A stretch of DNA of 64,000 nucleotides, taken from Flavobacteriaceae bacterium (lineage in GTDB: Bacteria > Bacteroidota > Bacteroidia > Flavobacteriales > Flavobacteriaceae). Location: positions 62,001-126,000 of the forward strand of contig JAGYIX010000004.1 in the NCBI GenBank assembly GCA_018402205.1, written 5' to 3'. Positions 5,781 through 56,140 of this stretch are shown here, in pieces (the stretch's first letter is position 1; each line of letters starts with the position of its first letter). The notes under the pieces were generated by a model, which had not been told where the DNA came from, made no database searches, and saw only the letters and a program-made list of their open reading frames with translations. The position numbers and the translations under genes were made by a program.

Positions 5781-5855
5781 GGGCTCTTAGCTCAGCTGGT
5801 TCAGAGCACCTGCCTTACAAGCAGGGGGTCACTGGTTCGAACCCAGTAGGGCCCA
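5781..5855 (+). tRNA. tRNA-Val (anticodon TAC)
   Basis: A complete cloverleaf can be folded by eye. The acceptor stem GGGCTCT pairs with AGGGCCC using two G-T or mismatch-like positions. The D arm contains AGCTCAGCTGGTTC. The anticodon stem CCTGC/GCAGG encloses the loop CTTACAA with anticodon TAC at 5816-5818, reading GTA and other valine codons. The T arm ACTGG/CCAGT encloses TTCGAAC. The 3' CCA is not encoded. Confidence 0.97.
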
Positions 5856-52940: not shown

Positions 52941-55062
52941 ATGTCAAGAGATTTATCACTTACGCGTAACATTGGAATTGCAGCACATATTGATGCTGGA
53001 AAGACTACGACTACAGAGCGTATTCTTTTTTATACAGGTGTGAGCCATAAAATTGGTGAAGTACACGATGGTGCAGCCACTATGGACTGGATGGAGCAAG
53101 AGCAAGAAAGAGGTATTACCATTACTTCTGCGGCTACCACTTGCACCTGGATTTTTCCTATGGAAAATGGGGAGCCTACTGCGGATGCAAAGCCTTATCA
53201 TTTTAATATTATTGACACCCCTGGTCACGTAGACTTTACGGTTGAAGTAAACCGTTCTTTAAGAGTACTTGACGGTTTAGTGTTTTTGTTTAGCGCGGTT
53301 GACGGGGTAGAACCTCAGTCTGAGACTAACTGGAGACTAGCGGATAATTACAAGGTTCCTCGTATGGGCTTTGTGAACAAGATGGATCGTCAAGGCGCCA
53401 ATTTCTTGGCGGTGTGTACCCAGGTGCGTGAGATGCTAAAATCAAACGCAGTTCCTATTGTGCTTCCTATCGGAGACGAGGCTGACTTTAAAGGTATTGT
53501 TGACTTGGTTAAGAACCGTGCTATTTCATGGCATGAAGATAACTACGGTTCTACTTTTGACGTTATAGATATTCCTGCTGACATGCTAGATGAGGTTAAG
53601 CAATACAGAGTTGCACTTATCGAAGCTGTAGCCGAGTACGACGACACTTTAATGGAGAAGTTCTTTGAGGATGAAGATTCAATCACCGAAGACGAAATTC
53701 ATGCCGCTTTGCGTGCAGCCGTTATGGACATGAGTATCATTCCAATGGTTTGTGGTTCTTCGTTCAAGAATAAAGGCGTTCAGTTTTTGTTAGATGCGGT
53801 GTGCAGATATTTACCTTCTCCTTTAGATAAAGAGGCAATTACAGGTATAAATCCTGATACGGAAAAAGAAGTTACCCGTAAACCAGATCCTAAAGAGCCT
53901 TTTGCGGCTCTTGCCTTTAAAATTGCTACTGACCCTTTCGTGGGAAGACTGGCGTTTTTTAGAACTTATTCAGGTACTTTAAATGCTGGATCATATGTAT
54001 TGAACAACCGTTCAGGTAACAAAGAGCGTATCTCTCGTATTTACCAGATGCATTCGAATAAGCAGAATCCGATTGATTCTGATTTCTGCTGGAGATATAG
54101 GTGCTGCAGTTGGGTTTAAGGATATCAAAACTGGAGATACACTTTCAGATGAGAAGCATCCAATTGTTCTAGAGAGCATGGTATTTCCTGAGCCCGTTAT
54201 TGGAATTGCTGTTGAGCCAAAAACTAAGGCTGACGTAGATAAAATGGGTATGGCTTTAGCTAAATTAGCTGAAGAGGATCCCACTTTTCAGGTGAAAACT
54301 GACGAGGCATCTGGTCAGACCATTATCTCTGGAATGGGTGAGCTACACTTGGATATCATTGTAGACCGTATGCGTCGTGAGTTCAAAGTAGAAGTTAACC
54401 AAGGTAAACCACAGGTAGAATACAAAGAATCTTTAACTGCTCGTGCCGATCACCGAGAAGTGTATAAAAAGCAAACCGGTGGACGAGGTAAATTTGCAGA
54501 CATTGTGTTTGCTATTGAACCTGTTAGTGAAGGCAAAGTAGGCCTCGAATTCGTGAATGAAGTTAAGGGAGGTAATATTCCTAAAGAATACATTCCTTCG
54601 ATCGAAAAAGGCTTTAGAGAAGCTATGAAAAATGGTCCTCTAGCCGGATTTGAAATGGACAGTATGAAGGTCACCCTTAAAGACGGATCTTTTCACCCTG
54701 TAGATTCCGACGCTTTATCCTTTGAGTTAGCCGCTAGACTTGGCTATAAGGTTTCTGCTAGAGCTGCTAAGTCAGTTATATTAGAGCCTATTATGAAACT
54801 CGAGGTATTAACCCCAGAAGAGAACATGGGCGATATCGTTGGTGACTTGAACCGCAGACGTGGCCAAGTTAATAATATGGACGACAGAGCTGGTTCTAAA
54901 GTAGTTAAAGCACAAGTGCCGTTATCTGAAATGTTCGGATATGTAACATCGCTTAGAACGCTTTCTTCAGGAAGAGCTACATCGACAATGGAATTTTCAC
55001 ATTATGCCGAAACTCCTCCGAATATTTCTGAAGAGGTCATTAAGGCTTCAAAGGGAGTTTAA
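52941..55062 (+). CDS. fusA: Elongation factor G, interrupted by a one-base frameshift
   Basis: Two overlapping frames (52941-54119 and 54073-55062) make one translation factor of about 706 residues. The first holds the G domain: [29 protein letters not shown] and [10 protein letters not shown]. The second holds domains [22 protein letters not shown] and the C-terminal [14 protein letters not shown]. At the break NKQNPIDS should continue into [12 protein letters not shown]; the G at 54081 is one base too many. Removing it restores a full EF-G. Since EF-G is essential, a sequence error is the likeliest cause unless a second copy exists. Confidence 0.9.
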
Positions 55063-55080
55063 CGAAACTATATTACGGCT

Positions 55081-55386
55081 ATGAGTCAAAAGATTAGAAT
55101 TAAGCTAAAATCATACGATTACAACTTGGTAGATAAGTCTGCCGAGAAAATCGTTAAGACGGTAAAGACAACTGGAGCTGTGGTTACAGGACCGATTCCT
55201 TTACCAACGAACAAGAAAATATTTACGGTATTGAGATCTCCACACGTAAACAAAAAATCGCGTGAGCAGTTTCAGTTGAGCTCTTACAAAAGATTACTCG
55301 ATATCTACAGCTCGTCATCTAAAACAATTGATGCGCTTATGAAACTTGAGCTTCCGAGCGGAGTTGAGGTAGAGATTAAAGTATAA
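55081..55386 (+). CDS. rpsJ: Ribosomal protein S10
   Basis: This 101-residue 30S protein, also known as the NusE antitermination partner, shows [40 protein letters not shown] and the typical hook loop. It comes directly after fusA with no tuf gene between, which joins the str and S10 clusters. A gap of 136 bases with strong hairpins separates it from rplC. Confidence 0.98.
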
Positions 55387-55390
55387 CTGT

Positions 55391-55490
55391 TTCAAACCGC
55401 TGTTTGAAGCTTACATGTCTTAAACGAAGGTTTAAGAAAGACGGAGATAGAAAAAAATATGGGTCTTTTTTTCTTGACCCAATTTTTTTT
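55391..55490 (+). promoter_or_regulatory. Three-hairpin leader/attenuator between rpsJ and rplC
   Basis: Three successive hairpins lie in this gap. TTCAAAC-CGCT-GTTTGAA is at 55391-55408. TCTTAAAC-GAAG-GTTTAAGA is at 55418-55437. TGGGTC/GACCCA is at 55460-55481 and is followed by nine bases, eight of them T (55482-55490), a terminator-like ending that A-T pairing (55451-55457) could lengthen. The first two are perfect with four-base loops. Such an arrangement inside a ribosomal protein operon suggests attenuation or autoregulation of the rplC-rplD part; in E. coli L4 regulates the S10 operon. The regulator here is unknown. Confidence 0.65.
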
Positions 55491-55522
55491 GAAAAGAGTA
55501 TTAATTAAAAACAATAAATAGA

Positions 55523-56140
55523 ATGTCTGGGTTAATAGGAAAGAAAATCGGCATGACTAGCATCTTTGATGAGAACGGAAAGAATATTCCGTGTACCGTC
55601 ATTAAAGCTGGACCATGCGTGGTTACCCAAGTCAGAACCGAAGAGGTTGATGGGTATAATGCGCTTCAACTGGGTTTCGATGACAAGGCAGAGAAGCGTG
55701 CTACAATGGCTGAAATCGGTCATGCAAAAAAGGCCGGAACTTCTCCAAAAAAGAAAATCGTCGAATTCCAGAATTTTAATAGCAAACACGCCCTTGGCGA
55801 TACGCTTGATGTGACGCTTTTTAATGAAGGTGAATTTGTGGATGTCATTGGCACTTCTAAGGGTAAAGGGTTTCAGGGTGTGGTAAAACGTCACGGCTTT
55901 GCCGGTGTAGGTCAAGCTACTCACGGTCAGCACAACAGATTAAGAGCTCCTGGATCAATTGGAGCTGCTTCTTACCCTGCTCGTGTTTTTAAAGGTATTC
56001 GTATGGCCGGTCGTATGGGCGGAGATACCGTTACCGTTGAAAACCTTCAAGTGGTAAAGATCGACACCGAAAAGAATCTTATTGTAGTAAAAGGTTGTGT
56101 TCCTGGTCACAAGAACGCATACGTAACAGTACAGAAATAA
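55523..56140 (+). CDS. rplC: Ribosomal protein L3
   Basis: The 205-residue early assembly protein reaches toward the peptidyl-transferase centre. [19 protein letters not shown] opens the protein; the extended loop holds [18 protein letters not shown] and [15 protein letters not shown]. It is first after the rpsJ-rplC hairpin region, and its stop shares one base with the rplD start. Confidence 0.98.

Follow-up and report, generated by a model that had tools for sequence, protein, structure and literature searches.

A conserved RNA element between rpsJ and rplC of Flavobacteriaceae, a probable transcription attenuator of the main ribosomal protein cluster

The window analysed here is a stretch of 64,000 nucleotides from a Flavobacteriaceae bacterium (contig JAGYIX010000004.1 of assembly GCA_018402205.1; source genome of 1.68 Mb in 8 contigs). 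It carries a ribosomal protein cluster in which rpsJ and rplC are separated by 136 bases, positions 55387-55522 (Table 1). The nearest named rplC loci by L3 identity are those of an uncultured Maribacter (85%) and a Eudoraea MAG (84%). An earlier note on this DNA had called the gap the only large one of the cluster, which the ORF coordinates confirm, and had described two perfect hairpins followed by a third stem with a T run. The minimum free energy (MFE) of the gap is -31.7 kcal/mol, compared to a mean of -20.6 kcal/mol (sd 3.08) for 200 dinucleotide shuffles, of which one folds equally well (z = -3.60). The gap folds better than its shuffles, and the three hairpins lie where they had been placed. 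Hairpin 2 is indeed perfect with 8 Watson-Crick pairs, while hairpin 1 contains one G-U among its 9 pairs. The third stem, GGGUC/GACCC, is followed by eight T at 55483-55490; a simple terminator scan of the window does not list it because its 10-base loop exceeds the limit of the scan.

Table 1. Features of the rpsJ-rplC gap and its flanking genes (positions in the window)
Feature	Positions	Strand	Description and basis
rpsJ (S10)	55081..55386	+	gene 5' of the element
P1, hairpin 1	55389..55410	+	MFE fold: 9 pairs (one G-U), loop CGCU; variable, directly behind rpsJ
Whole conserved element	55413..55498	+	covariance model R1: 65.6 bits, E 5.8e-14
Sensor-like domain	55413..55445	+	near-invariant ACAUGUC, hairpin P2, tail GRAAARACGG; conservation and covariation
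P2, hairpin 2	55418-55437	+	8 Watson-Crick pairs, loop GAAG
A1, 5' arm of the alternative (antiterminator-like) hairpin	55449..55457	+	AGAAAAAAA; fold and swap tests
B1, 5' arm of the terminator stem	55460..55465	+	UGGGUC; within the loop of the alternative hairpin
A2, 3' arm of the alternative hairpin	55466..55474	+	UUUUUUUCU; within the loop of the terminator
B2, 3' arm of the terminator stem	55476..55481	+	GACCCA; covariation and fold
U-tract of the terminator	55483..55490	+	8 T; sequence
rplC (L3)	55523..56140	+	gene at the head of the run under putative control

Comparison with relatives divides these hairpins. The idea of tandem hairpins as one unit is not supported, since hairpin 1 is not conserved in sequence; hairpins 2 and 3 make up the conserved element. 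At the place of P1, 11 of 102 unique motif gaps contain fewer than 20 nt. In 71 of the 91 unique gaps having enough sequence, the 45 nt directly 5' of the motif contain a hairpin of at least 6 pairs, compared to a mean of 28.3 and a maximum of 38 in shuffles of those gaps. By eye, differing palindromic stretches often lie between rpsJ and the motif in L092 and similar gaps, and the variable P1 site looks like a spot for repeat-type insertions.

Behind P1 lies what we call the sensor-like domain. Over 87 distinct sequences, UGUC, GAAA, one further A and one further G are invariant in this domain. A model built from P2 alone scores 35.4 bits at this site, with 11.2 bits for the second-best site in the window. 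The terminator stem is followed by at least five T in 74 of the 87 sequences and by at least four T in 86 of them. A G+C stem and a U-tract thus follow each other 5' of a gene, as expected for an intrinsic terminator.

For the survey of relatives, rplC loci were collected from 59 related genomes (57 matching; 30 loci), 80 named contigs and 28 further regions. This gave 138 loci, of which 128 contain both S10 and L3; ten were omitted, their S10 match not being found. A simple pattern search finds the core, in the order AUGUCC, hairpin, GGAAAAACG, A-rich stretch, stem and T-run, in 74 of the 128 rpsJ-rplC gaps, of which 67 were retained as distinct, the 74 including near or exact duplicates. The covariance model R1 was built from 55 sequences with a structure limited to P2 and the terminator stem. 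Its score for the window (Table 1) is not independent, since the window copy is one of these 55. In the 64 loci without the core (54 gaps and the ten omitted loci), R1 scores at most 19 bits. Across the window's own family, R1 finds a match in 246 of 299 sampled genomes and 194 of 236 genera (E 0.01), under the stricter filters of searches of more than 40 genomes, at which weak matches are lost. By our count 241 of the 299 genomes match strongly (E about 4e-10 or lower), some of which also gave training sequences to R1, and the other five matches (G093, G097, G215, G240 and G246; E 4.4e-4 to 0.0094) look like chance. Where a genome gives more than one R1 match (15 genomes), the best scores 64.5-89.8 bits and the remainder at most 35.3 bits.

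In the order sample, 23 of 196 genomes match R1: the 13 from the family score 54.7-91.5 bits, while the remaining 10 do not exceed 33.3 bits. The phylum sample gives 13 matches in 198 genomes, 10 of them from the family and 3 others, again with at most 33.3 bits. No R1 score above this value is found outside the family in these two samples. Within the family, presence is uneven. The element is absent, by core pattern and by R1 model, from 14 of 14 loci titled Flavobacterium. Among the genomes listed, one genus of the family (g146) is represented by at least 17 that lack a match and by no genome that has one. Several gaps of the loci L059-L085, which include the 14 Flavobacterium loci, hold the promoter pattern TAnnTTTGC and, by eye, a terminator-like stem instead. 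For Flavobacterium this suggests loss of the element and rewiring.

Position is constant at the loci checked. In 38 of 38 loci found by the model (L140-L177; L151, L158, L164, L173 and L176, the last being the window itself, repeat earlier ones), the element is flanked by rpsJ and rplC. Together with the 74 of 128 gaps this places the element consistently 5' of ribosomal protein genes, as is typical of ribosomal protein leaders (r-leaders). The P2-only model matches in 21 of 39 genomes, 20 of which carry strong sites of at least 35.4 bits; the lone 25-bit match in G047 is taken as chance. In these 20 genomes no strong site is found away from the rpsJ-rplC place. Across the class, the source genome alone matches the P2-only model, of 99 genomes searched. 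One genome, G006, contains two motif-bearing rplC loci on separate contigs (C47 and C22), perhaps from a strain mixture in the assembly.

The pairing of P2 and of the terminator stem is supported by covariation. In the R1 alignment of 97 distinct rows, which is biased toward the model, 81.9% of the cells pair and double changes occur at 14 of 17 pairs. The covariation score is 0.294 compared to 0.141 when shuffled and at most 0.084 for slid partners, with 141 double-change cells against 42.6. A MAFFT alignment of the 55 sequences gives a similar picture (80.5% paired, 13 of 17 pairs double-changed, score 0.330 against 0.158 shuffled). Both helices thus form a secondary structure backed by covariation, as in described r-leaders, and the conserved pairing in relatives that the earlier note had made a test of its idea is found. 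Two positions of P2 are nonstandard in 82 and 75 of the 97 rows, by eye mostly G over A. We read them as putative tandem G-A pairs, with standard pairs in the minority.

Just 5' of the terminator, segment A1 is predicted to pair with A2 in the terminator loop, often with an inner stem UUCA:UGAA or variants thereof around a GGGU loop. When the RNA is cut before the last terminator arm, the A1 region and the loop share at least 4 pairs in the MFE structure, and this holds for all 87 of 87 distinct sequences. The z values of these truncated folds average -3.1 and lie below -2 in 71 of the 87. When A1 or the loop is exchanged among 14 dissimilar sequences, the energy rises from -6.18 to -3.30 and -3.00 kcal/mol, a cost of about 3 kcal/mol, with 0 of 3000 permutations as good as the own pairing. 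Swapping B2 as a positive control shows the same behaviour (0 of 3000). Over all 87 sequences the values are -5.83 kcal/mol for own and -3.79 kcal/mol for swapped partners (0 of 2000), and a helix-score swap on 67 sequences, based on a first segmentation of the terminator in which a few rows (L001, L014, L077) were misplaced, again finds 0 of 5000 permutations as good. A control with reversed sequences still mildly favours the own pairing, by 0.8 kcal/mol for the 14 sequences (25 of 3000 permutations) and 0.3 kcal/mol for all 87 (6 of 3000), so relatedness or composition contributes to the swap result.

The fixed-column count stands against this picture. In an alignment fitted to the terminator, neither the number of paired A1:A2 cells (201 of 500 shuffles as high) nor that of pair types (86 of 500) supports the hairpin. 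Support from double changes is weak (12 and 18 of 500), as is that from the covariation score (30 of 500), and a register slid by -1 scores higher than the true one (0.166 against 0.135). We attribute this to shifts of register from one sequence to the next. An attenuator with mutually exclusive hairpins is expected to conserve an alternative hairpin that takes up one arm of the terminator; this is seen in the folds and swaps, and the fixed-column count gives it little support.

Stepwise folding of the window RNA gives the alternative hairpin 0.54-0.56 at 55474-55477. At 55480 the two folds tie, and from 55483 the terminator leads, with 0.92 there and 0.97-0.99 further on. At equilibrium the terminator clearly dominates (0.99); only through kinetics or with the help of a factor could the alternative hairpin matter. 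A pseudoknot combining A1:A2 and B1:B2 was rejected, as by eye 0-1 bases would have to cross up to nine pairs. Given this geometry, the two helices are treated as exclusive.

Promoters were sought in the 102 unique motif gaps as the patterns TAnnTTTGC and TAnnTTTG alone, which we take to be the flavobacterial -7 consensus. TAnnTTTGC lies 5' of the motif in 6 of 102 gaps, compared to 0.38 expected, and downstream of it in none (0.27 expected). For the looser TAnnTTTG the counts are 7 upstream (3.23 expected) and 0 between motif and rplC (3.77 expected). The six gaps with the upstream TAnnTTTGC are L077, L095, L046, L071, L025 and L031; by eye some have a separate terminator-like stem before it. 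In these six loci rplC may have its own transcript, and from the upstream position of the pattern the element would sit in the leader of that transcript. In the window's own rpsJ-rplC gap no promoter pattern is seen, and here the element would act inside a longer transcript.

R-leaders often, though not necessarily, resemble the site at which their protein binds rRNA, and a likeness of the sensor to ribosomal RNA was sought in two rRNA operon loci. The best model match is not significant (E 0.3). It falls in 23S rRNA at L139:2860-2896, with flanks ACAUG...AAACGG, presumably H52-H53 near the site of L23. The gene for L23, rplW, is the third gene of the operon. We regard this similarity as a lead, not as evidence. 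The sensor also has a word in common with 23S rRNA at E. coli positions 964-994; this match was dropped, as in the helix layout that we assume the rRNA pairs those bases otherwise. A leader peptide starting from the AUG at 55415 was also rejected, the third codon being a stop in the window (UCU UAA); by eye many relatives have a stop at the same codon (UCC UGA, UCC UAA).

The anatomy of sensor, alternative hairpin, terminator, U-tract and gene fits attenuation. With moderate confidence we propose that the element is a cis-acting transcription attenuator for the run rplC-rplD-rplW and onward, with feedback by a ribosomal protein as the probable control. It would then be a conserved switch that probably decides whether RNA polymerase stops or enters the main ribosomal protein cluster. 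In this model, polymerase would leave rpsJ, or in some species start at a promoter in the gap, and P2 with its A-rich tail would be transcribed first, given the order of the sequence. A1 is then predicted to pair with A2, as the swap tests suggest, holding B1 in the loop of the alternative hairpin. The emerging B2 would compete for B1, and where B1:B2 wins, stem and U-tract would release the polymerase 5' of rplC. The sensor tail ends only a few bases 5' of A1, so that binding of a protein at this place could block A1 and shift the outcome toward termination. The likeliest ligand would be a ribosomal protein of the rplC operon, by analogy to known leaders, and feedback by such a protein would be the likeliest control; L4 as the ligand is only a prior, taken from E. 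coli. The proposal in the earlier note of a leader that sets rplC onward apart from rpsL-rpsJ is borne out in part, by the conserved pairing, the constant position (38/38), the U-tract, the mutually exclusive alternative hairpin and the lack of TAnnTTTG downstream of the motif in the 102 gaps.

The terminator could also act without any ligand. A constitutive partial terminator, with sensor and alternative hairpin tuning read-through, would fix the ratio of rpsL-rpsJ to rplC and onward. The clear anatomy and thermodynamic dominance of the terminator agree with this, as do the motif-free gaps of relatives (54 of 128), from which regulation at this place appears dispensable. A fixed ratio, however, requires neither a 33-base upstream domain with near-invariant flanks nor an alternative hairpin that is lost on swaps between species, and we consider this reading unlikely. 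Still further from our expectation, and very improbable, is a reading in which the rpsJ transcript simply ends here and rplC has a promoter of its own further on, with no coupling. It would account for a terminator after rpsJ and for the TAnnTTTGC found in 15 of 54 motif-free gaps, but it expects promoters between element and rplC, where TAnnTTTG is found in none of the 102 motif gaps, and the six upstream patterns would place the element inside the rplC transcript there.

If the attenuator itself is granted, its reader may differ from an operon protein. LoaP-type factors that recognise leader hairpins exist elsewhere, and a general elongation or antitermination factor, or a small molecule, could read the sensor, so that the switch follows growth conditions and not an excess of ribosomal proteins. 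The absence of a significant rRNA mimic speaks for such a reader, as do the small sensor with its conserved A-rich flanks and the long run of downstream genes. Nevertheless, the strong P2-only sites of the 20 carrying genomes (with two contigs in G006) lie at this place alone, a pattern that fits autogenous control more readily than a general factor, and we judge a reader from outside the operon to be quite improbable. Equally improbable is the view that the RNA sensor is particular to this family, does not imitate rRNA and may have no ribosomal protein as its reader, and that it gates the cluster at its middle through a kinetic choice between antiterminator and terminator. We retain attenuation with feedback by an operon-encoded ribosomal protein as the preferred reading.

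The E. coli S10 leader precedes the entire S10 operon, whose first gene is rpsJ, unlike the element described here, which lies between rpsJ and rplC. Common to both would be premature termination before the same kind of cluster, in E. coli under the control of an operon protein, and L4 is described there as attenuating transcription of its own S10 operon (PMC10931766). Table 1 of PMC7247131 lists an L4 r-leader candidate of Archaeoglobi with the same downstream run, rplC-rplD-rplW-rplB; it is archaeal and is compared here by description. The same table lists S4, S15 and S16 r-leader candidates for Flavobacteria, thus ribosomal protein leaders from the same broad lineage, which again by description serve the rpsD, rpsO and rpsP operons and not rplC. 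No Flavobacteria rplC leader is among the 20 r-leaders of that main-text table (PMC7247131). The GUCCY-hairpin motif has GUCC in its name and is listed for Bacteroidetes, but also for Proteobacteria, with a question mark for both RNA and cis-regulation (PMC2864571, Table 1); compared by description, it may or may not be the same as our element. A transcriptome study of Flavobacterium psychrophilum names some of the structured 5' elements that the family conserves, with pheA, hisG, ftsY, acsA, alaS and rimP as examples; rplC does not appear in the main text (PMC9723704).

The Rfam search that the earlier note had proposed was run with Rfam 15. Its sole match in the window is the tRNA at 5781-5855. 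At a lax threshold the gap gives 18 matches, all below their own cut-offs, so that no family reaches its gathering threshold there, and the loci of 7 relatives give no match. The literature searched contains no report of the rplC element, which may be listed, unnamed, in a supplement. We file it as a putative new family of a known kind, the leader attenuator of ribosomal protein genes. As such it marks a candidate point of control over the main ribosomal protein cluster, conserved in a large bacterial family. Bacteroidota are described as initiating translation without Shine-Dalgarno pairing (PMC10931766). The element offers a compact test case for ribosomal protein balance at the transcription level in this phylum, and its alternative pairings are ready-made mutants for testing.

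Beside the cluster, fusA (EF-G, 52941-55062) is split in two frames, with ORFs at 52941-54119 and 54073-55062. Compared to four relatives of the genus, in which fusA reads through, the window differs by one base in length near 54080. The split of this essential gene probably stems from an error of assembly or sequencing.
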